A stretch of 64,000 nt of DNA from Caldilineaceae bacterium SB0661_bin_34 (lineage in GTDB: Bacteria; Chloroflexota; Anaerolineae; Caldilineales; Caldilineaceae), in the NCBI GenBank assembly GCA_009841145.1, contig VXMJ01000006.1, positions 1 through 64,000 of the forward strand, written 5' to 3'. Below the pieces are notes generated by a model. That model made no database searches. It was not told where the DNA came from and was given only the letters and a program-made list of their open reading frames with translations. A program made the position numbers and the translations under genes. Every line of letters begins with the position of its first letter. Within the stretch, counting starts at the first letter, position 1. Below are positions 1,873 through 57,701 of the stretch, piece by piece.

Positions 1873-3210
1873 TCACTCGGCGACATGTCGCGCTGCGTCA
1901 AGCACCTGTTCCAATTGACTGCGGCTCGAGAGGCCGGCAGTCGTGTTCATGAAGGTGCGCAGGTCGGGTGACAGCCTGCGCAGTTCTTCCAGTATCGGAC
2001 CTAGGTCGCTCGAACTGCCGCCGGTGGTCGCGTATGTTCCGTGGAACGCAAAGTAGGCTTGGTTGAGCTTGCGGATGAAGTAGCCGTGGGCGTTGATGTA
2101 CTGGCGTCGAGCTTCCATGTAGACCTCCGCGTCTTCGATTAACCCTTCTGCCAGGAGCCGGTCCGTTTCCAATCTGGTTTCGCGCATCGCATCCTGGAAA
2201 TCGAAACCGCTTTCCGATTCGGACTCATCTGTTTCGCCGGTGGCAATTCCCGGACCGGACTCCGCCTCCTCCGGCATCGGGTCCGGTTGGATGGGAAGCA
2301 TGGTGGCGGGTGGGGGTCTGCCGATAAGTTCCGGGTAGTAGCGCAGCATGATGCGCCGGCCCATTTCCTCACCAAAGATCGTGGCCACCGTTTCGTTGAT
2401 AGTGCGCAAGTCGTCTGACTGCAGGTAGCGAATGCCCAGGGGCCTGAAGACCAACCAGGTGTGAATCCACTCGTGGGCCACCACTTCGTACAGGTATTCC
2501 AGATCTCGGATGAGGGGATTGACCGATGTCGGATAGGTGGCAATCCCGCCCACACGGCTAAGGTGGGCACTCAAATTGTGCTCGGTCAGCACCATGTCCT
2601 CATAGGTGTCGGCCTGGGCCCAAGGCGTGCTTGGGCGGACATAGGCAAAGCCGATGGTCTGAATCACATCGCGCGGGCTGTACGTGACCAAAATTGGAGG
2701 ATCCGTCAACCTGAACACAACGGGCGGGAATACCCGGCCAGGGGAAACGAGCCCTAGGCGCGCGAGTTCCTCCATCACCTCGAACTGCACAACGAGTTCC
2801 AGTTCGTTTCGGTGAAGACCAAGCCACGCATCTTCCTCGAGCCGCTTGGCATCGTACCGGTAGTAGTTTACATAATCGAAAGGATCCAGGAGTTGGCTGG
2901 CCAGCCAACTCCCTTCATTGGCCTGCCAACGGGCCTCAAGATGGGATGCATATCGCCTGACAAACTCGCGGCGTTCCCTGTCGGTCCACGCTCGGGGACG
3001 TTCATTGACGAGGCGTGCCAGTGCGTAGCCGGCGGCATCGAGTTCCAGTTGGAGGACCGAATACCGCCAGGTTTCAAGATGGGCTAGGCCCGGAATGAAG
3101 GGATCCGGCCTGAGTACCGGTGCGAACGACGGCACTACGCTGATCAGGATCAGCCACCAATGCAGCCGCAGGCCCAGCAGGATGCGCGCGGCGCGCCACT
3201 TGCCGTTCAT
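1873..3210 (-). CDS. Membrane-anchored putative zinc metallopeptidase
   Basis: The 445-residue protein begins with a short basic stretch and one hydrophobic segment (about residues 13-33) that should act as an uncleaved anchor. In the middle is HEWIHTW, an HExxH zinc-binding helix, followed about 25 residues later by NETVATIFGEE, which supplies a glutamate in the position expected for a gluzincin-type third ligand. This layout resembles the predicted aminopeptidases of the DUF2265 type, but I cannot assign a named family. An acidic Glu/Ser-rich linker separates the catalytic part from a helical C-terminal region. It lies on the minus strand downstream of rluD with a 96-base gap, so it may be the last gene of the lspA-rluD transcript. 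The substrate is unknown; proteolysis at the outer face of the membrane is inferred. Confidence 0.6.
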   Translation of the reverse strand: MNGKWRAARILLGLRLHWWLILISVVPSFAPVLRPDPFIPGLAHLETWRYSVLQLELDAAGYALARLVNERPRAWTDRERREFVRRYASHLEARWQANEGSWLASQLLDPFDYVNYYRYDAKRLEEDAWLGLHRNELELVVQFEVMEELARLGLVSPGRVFPPVVFRLTDPPILVTYSPRDVIQTIGFAYVRPSTPWAQADTYEDMVLTEHNLSAHLSRVGGIATYPTSVNPLIRDLEYLYEVVAHEWIHTWLVFRPLGIRYLQSDDLRTINETVATIFGEEMGRRIMLRYYPELIGRPPPATMLPIQPDPMPEEAESGPGIATGETDESESESGFDFQDAMRETRLETDRLLAEGLIEDAEVYMEARRQYINAHGYFIRKLNQAYFAFHGTYATTGGSSSDLGPILEELRRLSPDLRTFMNTTAGLSSRSQLEQVLDAARHVAE

Positions 3211-3306
3211 GGGCGATTCCGGTGTTGCTCCGGTCGCGGTGTGCCTGTCGTCGGGGAAATCAGCCGGTTTCCGGTTGGCGGATGAAGCCAGGTCGAGCGA
3301 CCGTGC

Positions 3307-4275
3307 TCAGTCTGCCGGATCAAGGCCGGCGAGGGGACCTGCCAAATCTCCGGGCAGATCGGATTGGAACGTCATGTGTTCCCCGGTACACGGGTGATCG
3401 AAGGACAACCTTGACGCATGAAGAAACTGTCTGGACATGTGCAATCTCGGTTTCGTCAAGCCGTACACTCGATCGCCTACCACCGGGAATCCCAGCCATG
3501 CCATGTGAACCCTGATTTGGTGGGTCCGGCCCGTGTGCAGGCGCAGGTCCGTCAAGGAAAATGGATGCTGCAGACCCGGCGGACGCGAGACCAGGTAGCG
3601 GGAGACCTTGAAGTCCGTCAGGGCATCCCGTATTCGGATCCCGGCAACCGCGGAACCTGCTGGAAAGGCAGCCTGACGCTGGTGCCAGCGCGGGTGGCGT
3701 CCTAGCGGAACATCCACGGTTCCGCTCTGGGGTTCGAGCCACCCGTCCAACAGGGTCGTGTAGGACTTGCCTACGGTGCGTTCGCTGAATTGTCGCTGGA
3801 GCTTGACTTGGGCGGCCGCAGTGCGCGCGACCACCACCAGGCCCGACGTATCCATGTCGAGACGGTGGACCAGACCCAGGCGGCTGTCGGGACCAAGGGT
3901 GTGCCAATCGGGCCAGCGATGGACGAGTGCGTTAACCAAAGTCCGGTTGGGATGGCCGGGCCCCGGGTGCATGGACAGACCGGGCGGCTTGTCAATGACC
4001 GCCAGGTGCTCATCCTCAAAGACAATCGACAGGTTGGTGGACCAGGGTTCGATGGTTTCCGCCAACGGTGCAGGCATTTCGACCGTGACGGTTTGGCCCG
4101 GGTTTACACGGAATGACGGTGTGGACGGCCGGCCGTCCACCAGGATACTGCCCTCCTGGACCAGCGCCTTGACTCTGGTTCTGCTCAGAGGTGCCAGTCG
4201 GCTGGCACACACTTGATCAAGTCGGAGGCCCGCGTCGCCCAACTCTGTCCGGAACGACAGCTGTTGTACATCCAC
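3307..4275 (-). CDS. rluD: RluA-family 23S rRNA pseudouridine synthase (RluD type)
   Basis: The 322-residue protein has an N-terminal S4-like RNA-binding domain (LRLDQVCASRL to VDGRPS) and then the RluA catalytic core with HRLDMDTSGL around residue 139, whose aspartate is the catalytic residue of the family. The later motif HTGRTHQIRVH is also intact. RluC/RluD-type enzymes with an S4 domain modify uridines of 23S rRNA in the large ribosomal subunit. The gene begins with GTG directly next to the TAG stop of lspA, so translation is probably coupled; lspA-rluD adjacency is common in bacteria. Assignment to RluD rather than RluC rests on architecture only. Confidence 0.9.
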   Translation of the reverse strand: MDVQQLSFRTELGDAGLRLDQVCASRLAPLSRTRVKALVQEGSILVDGRPSTPSFRVNPGQTVTVEMPAPLAETIEPWSTNLSIVFEDEHLAVIDKPPGLSMHPGPGHPNRTLVNALVHRWPDWHTLGPDSRLGLVHRLDMDTSGLVVVARTAAAQVKLQRQFSERTVGKSYTTLLDGWLEPQSGTVDVPLGRHPRWHQRQAAFPAGSAVAGIRIRDALTDFKVSRYLVSRPPGLQHPFSLTDLRLHTGRTHQIRVHMAWLGFPVVGDRVYGLTKPRLHMSRQFLHASRLSFDHPCTGEHMTFQSDLPGDLAGPLAGLDPAD

Positions 4276-4881
4276 CTATACCCCGGAGTCGTTGCTGCCA
4301 CCCGACGCCTCCGGCGCCAGCGTCAAGGTGTCGGATTGGCCCTCTTCCTGCTGCTCGTCGTTGGCGAAGATGTCGTGTCGCCAAGCCATGAAGGTCATGA
4401 TCAGGACACCGACTACGATGCTCGAATCGGCAATATTGAAGTTGGGCCAGTAGGCCTTGCCGGGAATGCCCACCTTCACAAAGTCGGTCACGTAGCCCAG
4501 CGTCATGCGGTCGATGAAGTTCCCAATGGCACCACCCAGAATGAGTCCCATGAGAACCTGCATACCTCGTTGCGATATTCCCAAACGGCCAATGCTGACC
4601 AGGATCGCAATGGAGATGACCACCGTGGTGATGACGAACAATATCCCCGCGTTCTGGAGGATTCCGAAGGCGGCTCCGTAGTTGTGGACATGTTCCAGCA
4701 TGAAGATGCCTTCAAGCCAGGCAATAGGGGTGGACGAGTGATGCAGTTCGATGTGTTCGCGAACCAGCACCTTGGTCCACTGGTCCAATGCAACCACTAT
4801 TGCGGCACACAGCAGTGGGAGCCAGGCTCGGTTGAGGTAGCCGCGAATCATGGCAGGCGGTTGGTGAACGGGAAAGGACAC
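4276..4881 (-). CDS. lspA: Lipoprotein signal peptidase (signal peptidase II)
   Basis: This 201-residue membrane protein has the four hydrophobic segments and conserved motifs of LspA: ALDQWTK near residue 31, HNYGAAFG at 66-73, GNFIDRM with catalytic D124, and NFNIADSSI with catalytic D152. It removes the signal peptide of prolipoproteins after lipid attachment, within the cytoplasmic membrane. The C-terminal ~30 residues form a polar acidic tail beyond the usual family end. The listed start is GTG at 4881; an internal ATG at codon 11 is equally possible because neither has a clear ribosome binding site. It is followed without gap by rluD. Confidence 0.95.
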   Translation of the reverse strand: MSFPVHQPPAMIRGYLNRAWLPLLCAAIVVALDQWTKVLVREHIELHHSSTPIAWLEGIFMLEHVHNYGAAFGILQNAGILFVITTVVISIAILVSIGRLGISQRGMQVLMGLILGGAIGNFIDRMTLGYVTDFVKVGIPGKAYWPNFNIADSSIVVGVLIMTFMAWRHDIFANDEQQEEGQSDTLTLAPEASGGSNDSGV

Positions 4882-4922
4882 GGAGGACCACGCGTTGACA
4901 ACGCTTTCGATGGTCCTTGGGC

Positions 4923-4950
4923 ATTATGCTATACGCGACGTGTTTGTTCA
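4923..4950 (-). promoter_or_regulatory. Candidate promoter for lspA-rluD
   Basis: On the minus strand TGAACA (4950-4945) and CATAAT (4928-4923) are separated by 16 bases, placing the transcription start about 35 bases before lspA. The -10 is good, the -35 only fair, so this is a moderate guess. Confidence 0.35.
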
Positions 4951-4975
4951 GGCGTAGGTTCACAACAGGCGCGAC

Positions 4976-5748
4976 ATGGCACCAAGTCAAGAGGGATGGG
5001 TCCGCTTGGACACCACAACTGGCAACGTGGAGCCATGGATCGGCGGAACATTGCAGGTCCGGTGCCTTGTGCCAACGTTCGGCCAAGCGGGATTGGCCAC
5101 CAATGGGGAGTTGGCATCCTTGCGGACGACCATCGTGCCCGCGGAGGTCGATGGATCGGTATCCAACCGCCATCGTTCAGCCGTTGGGCCGGCCATGATC
5201 CCGAACTTGCCATATTCATCCATGCCGACCAAACTGCAATGGACCTGTTTCAGGCTCTGATTGCCCACGGCAACGCCTGCGGCAAACGCGTCCTCGCCCA
5301 GGCTGACTGGGAGACGGACAGTGACACCATCGAATACAACTGTGTCGAAACCCGGCGCATGCTGATCGAGAAGGCTTCCTTCTCCAGCAGTGGAATGGGG
5401 ATGTCCGGGACCAGAATGCGGTTTTGGCTGACCGAAGTCAACTACGTGGTGGAGAAGTATTTTGGGCCCGATCTGGCCCCGGTTGGCTGGTTCATGCCGG
5501 TCTGCGAGGAGGTCACAAATGTGGACCGGCGGCTGCAAACCTGTACGCTGTACCTCGGCATGGTGGCCAACCGCACCCGGAAACTGGTTGTAACTGGGGA
5601 GCGACCTCTGGAACAGGCAGTCTCCGAGCATCGGTTGACCCGGCAGGCTGCGGACCGGTACCAGGAGCGGCTGCGCCAATTGCGCAGGGATTGTCTTTCA
5701 GGCCGGTTTCCGCCTGCCATCGTGCGAAACTTCGAGTTGGACGGTTGA
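4976..5748 (+). CDS. Hypothetical protein, reading frame appears to shift
   Basis: Two adjacent plus-strand frames look coding here by third-position GC and protein-like composition. The first (from ATG 4976 to a stop at 5260) reads convincingly to about 5190; the second continues from about 5200 to the stop at 5748 with a solid ~180-residue stretch (for example DWETDSDTIEY and RLTRQAADRYQERL). The second frame has no good start near the switch, only ATG 5035 far upstream or ATG 5239 inside. The simplest reading is one ~255-residue protein with a natural or assembly frameshift between about 5190 and 5240. It sits 14 bases before hisH on the same strand. I do not recognise the family, and cannot exclude two overlapping genes. 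Confidence 0.35.
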
Positions 5749-50800: not shown

Positions 50801-50837
50801 ACCCGAGGTGTACTGGAAGTAGTGGGAGCATTTGGAC

Positions 50838-52637
50838 ATGGCCGAGCGCGAGATCCCAATCGATGTTGCCCGGAAGCACTGTCCGGACAACGATGGGCCT
50901 GTGCTGCGGCCCGGCATCTCGGACTACGTACGCCTCCGACGTGCCAATCACGCCTATGTCGACAAGACTCGTGAATTGGCAAACTTGCTCGACTCAGGCG
51001 AGTTCCTGTTTCTGGCCCGGCCCCGTCGCTTCGGGAAGACCCTGATGTTGTCAACCATCGAGTGCATGTTTCAGGGGGACCGGCCCAATGTTCGGGATCC
51101 GTTCGTGGAAATGGCTCATTCGATCCCTCAGGTACCGGACGACCTCCTGTTTGCAGGCACATCTTGGGAATCGAGTGCTGCCAAAACTCCCAGACGACCG
51201 GTGATCCGACTGGACATGAGCGCGGTTGCGGGCGATAGCCCGGTGGAAATGAGGATTTCCCTGAAGCAGCACGTCGCGCATCAGGGGTTGCTTTGGTATA
51301 GGCGGGGACTCGATCCCGGAATCGAGTTGATGCATCTGCGGGATTCAACCAGCTATCCCCACACACCCCAGGTCATGCTTGAACAGTTGATCCAGTCTCT
51401 CAAGTCACAGGCGGGGGACCCGGTGGTACTGGTGGACGAGTACGACACACCACTCTTGAAGTTGCTGGGCCACGAACCAGCTGCAGTTGAGCCGTTCTTT
51501 GAGTTGTTCCGAGAATTCTATCGACTGTTCAAGCAGTGTGAATCGGACCTGCACAAGGTTCTGATTACCGGAATCACGCGGCGGGCTTACGGTGAGATGT
51601 TCTCGGCGCTCAACAACCTGCGGGACTGTACTTGGAAGGAAGAATTCGGTGCGGTCTGTGGCTTCACGGAAGGCGACTTGGACCAAGCCCCGTTATTAAC
51701 CTACACCGAAACGGCGGCGGAAGGTCTGGGCATGCCAATCGATGAACTTCGGGAACGCTTGAGGGAGAACTACAACGGCTATCGATTCGATCCGGACGGT
51801 TTCGGACCGGCGGTCTACAACCCGTGGTCACTGTGCAACGCGCTGACCGACCTGCTGGTGCCGCAGGGACGGGCTCGTATCCAACGACGGGGGTTCCCGG
51901 CGCACTGGTCGGATTCCGGAGTGTCGAAGTCCTTGGTGGATGCGTTGCGGCGGCAACCTTCGGCAGTCGATCCGACACCATTTTTGGATCTAGACGAATT
52001 GGATGCGGACTTCTATAGCAACCGTGCGACCGGCCTAAAGTCGCTGATGTTGCAGAGCGGATATCTGACACACCATCCTGCACGGGACGGTCAACCTGCG
52101 CAGCTGGGCTGGCCCAATCGGGAAGTTGCGCGGACGGTGTTGCGGGATCTGGCGCGTACCCATGTTGGACATGAGCTTCCGGGAATCGAACGGCTCCGGA
52201 CATGTCTGGCAACGGGGGACTACCGGAAGTTGCCGAAAGTCCTGCTGGACTGCCTGTACGCGTTTCCCTACAACATCATGGATGACGAATACTCCCACCA
52301 CGCTGCGCTACACGGCATCTTCCTGGGAATGGGAATTGTGCCTCGGTCGGAGCGACGCGAGCTGTCCGGGACGTACGACCTAGCGGCCATCTTCCGCGGC
52401 CGGGCCTGTGTTTTCGAACTGAAGTACAACCGTAGTCTGCGGGAGGCACAGGTACAGGCCGACCGCCGACAGTATGGACGCAGCTTGTTGATGGAGTTGG
52501 AACAAACGAAAGACGTCACCTGTATAGCCCTGCACGTAACCAAGACCGGGGATGGGCAAGTATGCATTGAGGGAGCACAACGGCCGGTGCGTGATGTTGA
52601 TGCGGAATGGACCCCTCTCAACACCGAGCAGCGGTGA
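50838..52637 (+). CDS. AAA-ATPase-like protein with C-terminal PD-(D/E)XK nuclease domain
   Basis: The 599-residue protein belongs to the AAA-ATPase-like/DUF1703 family: YVDKTRELANLL, then FLARPRRFGKTLML, the Walker A variant typical of the family, and VVLVDEYDTPLL (Walker B). The C-terminal domain has CVFELKYN with acid and lysine residues of the restriction-nuclease fold followed by QVQADRRQYGRSLL. The family is often multicopy in gut and marine bacteria, with no settled role; defence or mobile-element biology has been suggested. I chose ATG 50838 because GGGAG lies upstream; a TTG two codons earlier is possible. No partner gene is adjacent. Confidence 0.85.
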   Translation: MAEREIPIDVARKHCPDNDGPVLRPGISDYVRLRRANHAYVDKTRELANLLDSGEFLFLARPRRFGKTLMLSTIECMFQGDRPNVRDPFVEMAHSIPQVPDDLLFAGTSWESSAAKTPRRPVIRLDMSAVAGDSPVEMRISLKQHVAHQGLLWYRRGLDPGIELMHLRDSTSYPHTPQVMLEQLIQSLKSQAGDPVVLVDEYDTPLLKLLGHEPAAVEPFFELFREFYRLFKQCESDLHKVLITGITRRAYGEMFSALNNLRDCTWKEEFGAVCGFTEGDLDQAPLLTYTETAAEGLGMPIDELRERLRENYNGYRFDPDGFGPAVYNPWSLCNALTDLLVPQGRARIQRRGFPAHWSDSGVSKSLVDALRRQPSAVDPTPFLDLDELDADFYSNRATGLKSLMLQSGYLTHHPARDGQPAQLGWPNREVARTVLRDLARTHVGHELPGIERLRTCLATGDYRKLPKVLLDCLYAFPYNIMDDEYSHHAALHGIFLGMGIVPRSERRELSGTYDLAAIFRGRACVFELKYNRSLREAQVQADRRQYGRSLLMELEQTKDVTCIALHVTKTGDGQVCIEGAQRPVRDVDAEWTPLNTEQR

Positions 52638-56154: not shown

Positions 56155-57051
56155 CTACTCCTCAACGGATGGCCAATCCCATTCTGTCCAAATCGCCTCT
56201 CCAAGCTGGCGGGCCAGAGCCCTGTAGGCATTGCGCATAAGCATAATGGTGGTAAGGGGTCCAATGCCTCCCGGTACCGGAGTCAACCAACCGGCCTTGG
56301 AACCCACTGAATCCGGATCGCAATCTCCCAGCACCGTCTTACCGACATATGTGGTCCCGATGTCAAGAACCACGGCATCTTTTTTTACATGATTGCCGGT
56401 GATGAGACCTGGCTTGCCTACTGCCACGCATAGGATGTCGGCTTCCGCGGTGAGGGATGCCAGGTTCCTGGTGTGCGCGTGGGCAATGGTTACCGTACAG
56501 CGCCGGTTGAGCAGGCGCATGGCCAGTGGTTTTCCGACAATCGCGCTGTGGCCCACAACCACCGCCTGCTGACCGCTCAACTCAAGGTCCAGGCTGTCCA
56601 GCAGGGCCATTGCGGCAGCCGGGGTGGGGGGTGTGAAGAATATGCCGGTATCGGCAAGCAGGTGGCCCATGTTGCCGGGCGACACGCCCTCCAAATCTTT
56701 CGAAGGTGCGATTCTCCATTGCAGCATAGTCTGATTCAGATGGGTCGGCACGGGTGTCAGCAAGATGATGCCGGTAATCTCCGCAGCAAGGTTCAGTCGA
56801 TCGATGGCCTCCATGGCGTCCGACATCCGGCAGTCTCCCGGTAGTCGCACAAGTTGATAGCCGATGCCCGTGTTGGCGCTGGCCCTGCTTTGGGCGCGCG
56901 CATAGTTCAGGGCACCTTGATCGTCCCCGACAATCACGGCCGCGATGGTGGCCGCATGGCCAGTGCGTTCCTGGAATTCGCGCACATCCTTCGCGGTCCG
57001 GCGTCGGAGTCGCCGGGCCAACGCGCGGCCCTTGAGCGGTTTGGCAGTCAC
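56155..57051 (-). CDS. folD: FolD-like methylenetetrahydrofolate dehydrogenase/cyclohydrolase with altered active site
   Basis: The 298-residue protein has the FolD fold: an N-terminal catalytic domain, the NADP-binding VVGHSAIVGKPLAM loop and the conserved C-terminal GWLTPVPGGIGPLTTIMLMRN. However, at the places of the E. coli catalytic residues K54, Q98 and D121 it has Q54, L98 and E121, with Y50 kept, so cyclohydrolase activity is probably lost and dehydrogenase activity reduced or changed. The GTG start at 57051 overlaps the TGA of the cyclodeaminase-family gene (GTGA), so the two are translated together and should work on related folates. It may be a specialised paralogue of a normal FolD encoded elsewhere. 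Confidence 0.85.
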   Translation of the reverse strand: MTAKPLKGRALARRLRRRTAKDVREFQERTGHAATIAAVIVGDDQGALNYARAQSRASANTGIGYQLVRLPGDCRMSDAMEAIDRLNLAAEITGIILLTPVPTHLNQTMLQWRIAPSKDLEGVSPGNMGHLLADTGIFFTPPTPAAAMALLDSLDLELSGQQAVVVGHSAIVGKPLAMRLLNRRCTVTIAHAHTRNLASLTAEADILCVAVGKPGLITGNHVKKDAVVLDIGTTYVGKTVLGDCDPDSVGSKAGWLTPVPGGIGPLTTIMLMRNAYRALARQLGEAIWTEWDWPSVEE

Positions 57052-57701
57052 CGAGATTGATCCATGCGTTCCGTACAACGGTCCAGGGTGCGACTGCTGA
57101 ACCTGACCGCATCCTTGATGCAGGCCGCGATGTCGGCTGCCAACGCTTGTTGCTCCGCACCGGGTGTGGCCATGCACAGGTTGACATGCACATTGACGTT
57201 GCTGCTGTGAACGGCTGCCAGTAGCAGGTGGGTGCCTACCATCACATCGGACAACACCGTCCTGTTGCCGCGGTTTGCCACTTCCCAGGTGTCCCCGAGC
57301 ACCCCCCGGCAGGTGTCCGCGACCTGAAGGGGCACGGTGGCTGCCGTGTGCAGAGCCCGGTCGAGTTCCGCGCGTCGGACTGCCCGTGCAGATGGATCGT
57401 GTGCCGACAGCTTCAGGCAGCGGTCCACTTCGGCATACGCGGCAGCGTCCTGATCGGCCAGGTTCAGCAACTCCAAACGGCTGGCCTCCAGCCGCTGCTG
57501 GATCGGCCGCAGGATCCCGTCGTGGCGCTGAAACCGCCTGCGGCCTACTGTCAGATTCAGGACCATGCACAGCAAGGCTGTTCCGTGGGAGCCGGTCACG
57601 GCGGCGGCAGTTCCACCACCCGGAACGGGCTCGCGGGACGCAAGGGCGTCCAGGAACGCGGCGGTGGGGATGGACTGGAACGAATTCAAGGATGGGGGCA
57701 A
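57048..57701 (-). CDS. Formiminotetrahydrofolate cyclodeaminase family protein
   Basis: The 217-residue all-helical protein matches the FTCD C-terminal (cyclodeaminase) domain: FLDALASREPVPGGGTAAAVTGSHGTALL near the start and the later helix AADIAACIKDAV. The family converts 5-formimino-THF to 5,10-methenyl-THF and ammonia, linking histidine or purine breakdown to the folate pool. Here it is a stand-alone protein without the formiminotransferase half. Its coupling to the FolD-like gene supports a role in one-carbon metabolism. Confidence 0.88.
   Translation of the reverse strand: MPPSLNSFQSIPTAAFLDALASREPVPGGGTAAAVTGSHGTALLCMVLNLTVGRRRFQRHDGILRPIQQRLEASRLELLNLADQDAAAYAEVDRCLKLSAHDPSARAVRRAELDRALHTAATVPLQVADTCRGVLGDTWEVANRGNRTVLSDVMVGTHLLLAAVHSSNVNVHVNLCMATPGAEQQALAADIAACIKDAVRFSSRTLDRCTERMDQSR

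Follow-up and report, generated by a model that had tools for sequence, protein, structure and literature searches.

A Caldilineaceae FolD without the catalytic lysine and its overlapping FTCD_C gene: a probable division of the two FolD activities

A division of the FolD activities between two proteins is said to have been described by Aluri and colleagues in 2016 for Clostridium perfringens, whose FolD reportedly acts as a dehydrogenase only, with a separate FchA as cyclohydrolase, both being required to replace E. coli folD. C. perfringens also possesses Fhs. The Wood-Ljungdahl cluster of Acetobacterium woodii has the order fhs-fchA-folD (PMC10472528), and fchA and folD are likewise found in the acetogen cluster of T. 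acetatoxydans (PMC3584212). In FolD, a lysine (K54 in E. coli numbering, used throughout) is the acid/base of the cyclohydrolase reaction and a glutamine (Q98) positions that lysine, the catalytic residues having been called strictly conserved in orthologues (PMC3338484); an aspartate (D121) binds the pterin (PMC3368264, PMC6443876). In E. coli, the K54N mutant retains about 19% of the dehydrogenase activity while its cyclohydrolase is undetectable, the Q98H mutant retains 8% of the dehydrogenase and about 1% of the cyclohydrolase (PMC5688156), and mutation of D121 leaves 0.17% of the wild-type kcat/Km, as cited in PMC6443876.

Here we examined a pair of folate genes on the reverse strand of a 64,000-nucleotide stretch of a Caldilineaceae genome (the window). 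The first (57048..57701; PF04961, 160.8 bits; TTG start at 57701 uncertain) belongs to the FTCD_C family and putatively encodes an FchA-like methenyl-THF cyclohydrolase. The second (56155..57051; GTG start at 57051) encodes a FolD homologue of 298 aa that lacks K54 and is predicted to be a dehydrogenase only. As the preliminary description had it, the start of FolD overlaps the stop of the FTCD_C gene: read directly from the sequence, the FolD GTG (57051-57049) and the FTCD_C TGA (57050-57048) form a 4-nt GTGA (57048..57051, reverse strand), which all four members of the genus share and which might serve translational coupling. The flanking genes, a divergent Lon gene upstream and a LysM gene downstream, keep their order across the genus, and scans for promoters and terminators returned nothing exceeding chance. 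The bacterium is presumably sponge-associated, to go by its bin name, and a relative with a 97% identical FolD is the Caldilineaceae MAG IRC1_bin_30. Elsewhere in the window (50832-52637) lies a predicted AAA-ATPase gene with a C-terminal part that by eye is nuclease-like, and a sister genome (L107) has three tandem copies at that place.

Aligned in E. coli numbering, the window FolD has Gln at position 54 (codon CAA, 56890..56892), Leu at position 98 (CTG, 56758..56760) and Glu at position 121 (GAG, 56689..56691; all on the reverse strand), and it keeps Y50 (codon TAT), K118, D119 and G122. Its residues at positions 50, 54, 98 and 121 are thus Y-Q-L-E in place of the bifunctional set with the YxxxK lysine, Gln98 and Asp121. 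These replacements, and the retained Y50, are as first described; the further statement that all three catalytic residues are missing holds for the replacements as such but overstates D121E, which is a conservative change that keeps the carboxylate. Both FolD Pfam domains are matched (PF00763, 81 bits; PF02882, 180 bits), and an AlphaFold2 model (pLDDT 92.9), built on an alignment of window and locus proteins only, places the protein within the FolD fold, with Z 41.4 and rmsd 1.2 Å over 283 residues against human MTHFD1 and Z 37.9 against E. coli FolD. Among the best 25 of 30 matched models, no NCBIfam model for bifunctional FolD reached its cut-off, the highest score, 235.7 bits, falling short of a cut-off of 423.

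The nucleotide site differs as well. Arg, His and Ser are the ligands of the NADP 2'-phosphate in the human and Leishmania enzymes (PMC3368264). By alignment, the window FolD has His for the Arg in GRS (position 167 of E. coli; codon CAC, 56548..56550) and Ala for the Ser (position 191; GCG, 56476..56478; both on the reverse strand), which makes a His/His/Ala set where an NADP-dependent FolD would have Arg/His/Ser; two sister genomes have Lys instead of that Ala. The NADP loop, at first thought to be kept, is therefore kept in its GxSxxVGKP backbone but not in two of its three 2'-phosphate ligands, the Arg of GRS and the Ser that follows the conserved His. The changed ligands might reflect a cofactor switch in the window genus; E. 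coli FolD itself has Ala/His/Arg at these positions, so the window FolD may still use NADP.

Within the genus FolD has a dN/dS of 0.14-0.25 and FTCD_C one of 0.14-0.37, which indicates purifying selection, and the Q/L/E state is shared by all 4 congeneric genomes. The FolD ratio and the conserved synteny argue against a pseudogene or artefact, and by these sequence measures purifying selection maintains FolD as a working gene. Fast evolution specific to FolD was considered and set aside, being largely genus-wide: PurH and FTCD_C show it too, identities between the window and other genera, as against those genera among themselves, being 55%/72% for PurH, 41%/65% for FolD and 33%/59% for FTCD_C. 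The genome is 98% complete and its PF02882 domain occurs once, in this FolD, so that no second, canonical folD was found; the FTCD_C gene of the locus is likewise the only one. Fhs was looked for in the same 98%-complete genome and none was found; purH is present, and PurH needs 10-formyl-THF. A stand-alone glutamate formiminotransferase gene (FTCD_N) lies on another contig (L177:5879-6868), where it adjoins galT and an enolase-superfamily gene; a scan of its neighbours revealed no recognisable hut gene.

It could be argued from D121E, K54Q and Q98L together, and from the altered NADP-phosphate ligands, that FolD has lost all catalysis and serves FTCD_C as a regulator or scaffold. We regard this as extremely unlikely, and the earlier suggestion of a regulatory, non-catalytic partner is not supported either: the gene is the sole FolD of a genome with purH and with no Fhs found, it is under purifying selection, its fold is intact with invariant nucleotide-binding and PGG motifs, and Glu121 occurs in other lineages too.

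The genome thus combines a FolD without K54 with an FTCD_C/FchA gene, the combination that marks a dehydrogenase-only FolD with an FchA partner. In the reading that we favour, with a probability of about 0.8, a bifunctional enzyme has been split, FolD being left with the dehydrogenase while an FchA-like cyclohydrolase comes from the overlapping FTCD_C gene. FolD would convert 5,10-methylene-THF to 5,10-methenyl-THF, assuming flux in that direction, the FTCD_C protein would convert methenyl-THF to 10-formyl-THF for purine synthesis, and the 4-nt overlap may cause the two proteins to be made in step.

The FTCD_C protein of the window stands alone (217 aa), without the fusion to a formiminotransferase domain that defines FTCD, and keeps 14 of 16 near-invariant positions of a core defined by conservation. 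Its best PDB match by sequence is 7vg4, the Methylobacterium-type FchA, a methenyl-THF cyclohydrolase, and its sole NCBIfam match is the FchA model NF045657, at 129.5 bits and hence below the curated cut-off of 275; FolD-linked relatives score 128-259 on that model, Methylobacterium scores 338, and hut-linked FTCD_C proteins score much as the FolD-linked ones do. Two related genomes (G031 and G034) carry a full-length FTCD and a separate FolD-linked FTCD_C. Taken together, these sequence comparisons make an FchA-type cyclohydrolase, which takes the product of FolD, more likely than a cyclodeaminase that supplies it with methenyl-THF. The preliminary description had FolD receiving methenyl-THF from a cyclodeaminase, and the 7vg4 match, the FchA model as the only NCBIfam match and the additional FTCD of the two genomes speak against that direction. 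It seems unlikely that FTCD_C is a true cyclodeaminase, turning formimino-THF into methenyl-THF during histidine breakdown and so feeding a FolD that reduces it or regulates the branch. The formiminotransferase gene elsewhere in the genome makes such a role possible, if only as a side role, both reactions may fall to a single FTCD_C, and the similar scores of hut-linked proteins on NF045657 count in its favour; but the formiminotransferase gene has no recognisable hut gene beside it, and since no Fhs was found, the loss of K54 would leave the genome with no cyclohydrolase to form 10-formyl-THF unless FTCD_C is one.

We surveyed 149 FolDs, mostly from Chloroflexota, with named outsiders from a plasmid collection. 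K54 is present in 0 of the 85 FolDs adjacent to FTCD_C and in 46 of the 64 that are not, counts that describe a pattern and carry no significance test, since the loci were chosen by us from hand-picked genomes, many of them close kin, and few independent events underlie the association. Aligned with these FolDs and FTCD-linked homologues, the window protein has neither Lys54 nor Asp121, in agreement with what had been described. Every one of the 103 K54-less FolDs comes from a genome that also carries FTCD_C or a K54-bearing FolD paralogue: among the 18 non-adjacent ones, 11 are second copies in genomes with an adjacent pair as well, 3 have FTCD_C elsewhere, and the other 4 are two outsiders with FTCD_C elsewhere (Fusobacterium, Acetoanaerobium) and two members of tandem pairs. 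An overlap of exactly 4 nt was found in 60 of the 84 FolD/FTCD_C pairs measured, including those of Nonomuraea and Arthrobacter; pairs at L027 and L045, with implausible gaps, and at L174, with a large negative gap and reversed gene order, were left uninterpreted.

Of the 43 genomes of the window's order whose FolD passes the cut-off, 42 have it adjoining FTCD_C. The adjacent FolDs of the order read Y-I-L-D (one Y-L-L-D) and those of the window genus Y-Q-L-E; in G032, the only one of the 43 in which FolD does not adjoin FTCD_C, FolD is a canonical Y-K-Q-D. The window pair is therefore no singular oddity, the only genus-specific steps within the order being D121E and I54Q. Across the phylum sample FTCD_C-adjacent FolDs are mostly Y-I-Q-D, and genomes negative for FTCD_C have a FolD with K54, with one exception (a tandem FolD of G095). 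The converse fails: a K54 FolD coexists with a standalone FTCD_C elsewhere in the genome in G032 and G221, and with a full-length FTCD in, for example, G338.

It may be asked whether FolD can do without the lost residues and is still bifunctional, with FTCD_C doing no more than boosting flux. Both activities of Bombyx MTHFD are little affected by K53A and Q97A (PMC6443876), so loss of the lysine need not abolish the cyclohydrolase in every FolD. Yet E. coli K54N behaves otherwise (PMC5688156), and within the survey K54 is never lost unless FTCD_C or a K54-bearing FolD is present in the same genome; we consider continued bifunctionality very improbable. The proposal of a predicted dehydrogenase-only partner of an FTCD-family gene, by contrast, is well supported by the phylum-wide association and the E. 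coli mutants (PMC5688156).

Several loci of the survey show other arrangements. In G221 (L102, about 3035-5085) the standalone FTCD_C adjoins a gene that by eye is a predicted aminotransferase, and the FolD of that genome is canonical. In Fusobacterium vincentii (L092, L100), where FolD is Y-Q-N-D, FTCD_C adjoins genes resembling a histidine-utilisation cluster. A second K54-less FolD apart from FTCD_C (for example Y-L-L-D or Y-V-L-D) occurs in several Chloroflexota (L162-L171). In G318 the gene order is reversed, from FolD to FTCD_C, with a Y-L-Q-E FolD (L174/L180) and two further K54-less FolDs with E121 (L159, L167).

Two Chloroflexota without FTCD_C, G095 (L153/L178) and G151 (L161/L179), each have two adjacent FolD genes. 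In both, copy 1 lacks K54 and keeps the GRS NADP loop, and copy 2 keeps Y-K-Q-D and has VNVDN or VSADN for the GRSN loop, with Pro for Ser. They look like a dehydrogenase-only copy and a cyclohydrolase-only copy, and such a division between paralogues would account for the K54-less, FTCD_C-negative exception of G095; G151 has, on another contig (L149), one more FolD with K54, so that there the division is not strictly needed. As read from their motifs, the tandem pairs lend independent support to the meaning that we give to K54 loss. The tandem genes of G095 lie within what by eye appears to be a Wood-Ljungdahl cluster.

The losses are nested. Q98 and D121 are present in all 46 FolDs with K54, and are kept in 49 and 95, respectively, of the 103 without it, a pattern which suggests that K54 went first, Q98 later at the level of the order, and D121 last, in the window genus. 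Because the lysine is the acid/base and the glutamine serves to position it, loss of K54 would end the need for Q98. K54 would have disappeared long ago where a lineage had a separate cyclohydrolase, Q98 would then have been free to drift and was probably lost in the Caldilineales, and D121, whose carboxylate holds the pterin, may have changed to Glu in the window genus. On the trees, K54 loss takes 3-4 changes, and the AU test (p 0.004) rejects a topology that unites all K54-less FolDs in one clade; separate losses fall in the large FTCD_C-associated group, in Fusobacterium and in the tandem pairs, the exact placement of the long branches (Fusobacterium, Acetoanaerobium) being unsure. With an SH-aLRT of 96, the window genus is nested in the clade of the Caldilineales, and its residue state therefore derives from a K54-less ancestor. 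Position 121 needs three changes, E121 occurring outside the window genus in the three copies of G318 and in a second copy of G057, all without K54. The wider proposition, for which we would give even odds, is that the FolD activities have been separated repeatedly in bacteria with a replacement cyclohydrolase each time (FTCD_C in at least two lineages, a tandem FolD in two FTCD_C-less Chloroflexota), the window genus standing at the far end, with changes reaching the Asp that binds the pterin and the ligands of the NADP phosphate.

Carolacton needs K54 to bind the E. coli enzyme (PMC5688156), so K54-less FolDs are predicted to be naturally insensitive to it. The survey contradicts the strict conservation of FolD catalytic residues stated in PMC3338484. 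The survey suggests a rule that can be put to the test on individual enzymes: K54 is lost first, and Q98 and D121 are lost only after it. Annotation is affected too: NCBIfam and similar models name K54-less FolDs bifunctional, so cyclohydrolase capacity is probably mis-assigned in many Chloroflexota with FTCD_C-folD, and FTCD_C beside folD tends to be annotated as the cyclodeaminase of histidine breakdown.

Compared with known systems, the window pair resembles the reported FolD and FchA of C. perfringens in the predicted split between a dehydrogenase-only FolD and an FchA; unlike in C. perfringens, which has Fhs, none was found in the genome of the window, the two genes overlap, and Q98 and D121 are lost too. 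The acetogen clusters share the adjoining fchA and folD, and Acetoanaerobium noterae also has a K54-less FolD (Y-A-F-D), but the window differs from those clusters in gene context, in the overlap and in that no Fhs was found. Yeast MTD1 (PDB 1edz), a monofunctional NAD-dependent methylene-THF dehydrogenase without cyclohydrolase, has the same fold (Z 29.8) but is only 24% identical, the window FolD being closer to bacterial FolD and MTHFD1. With canonical FolD (E. coli, human MTHFD1) the window protein has in common the fold, Y50, the backbone of the nucleotide-binding loop and K118/D119/G122, and it differs in the replaced K54, Q98 and D121 and the changed NADP 2'-phosphate ligands. Our literature search, of partial coverage, found no paper describing the overlapping pair phylum-wide, the nested losses or the tandem FolD pairs. 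Already known, then, are the dehydrogenase-only FolD with FchA that is reported from C. perfringens, yeast MTD1, and fchA beside folD in acetogens; new here are the phylum-wide overlapping gene pair, the nested losses that appear to end in D121E, and the tandem FolD pairs.
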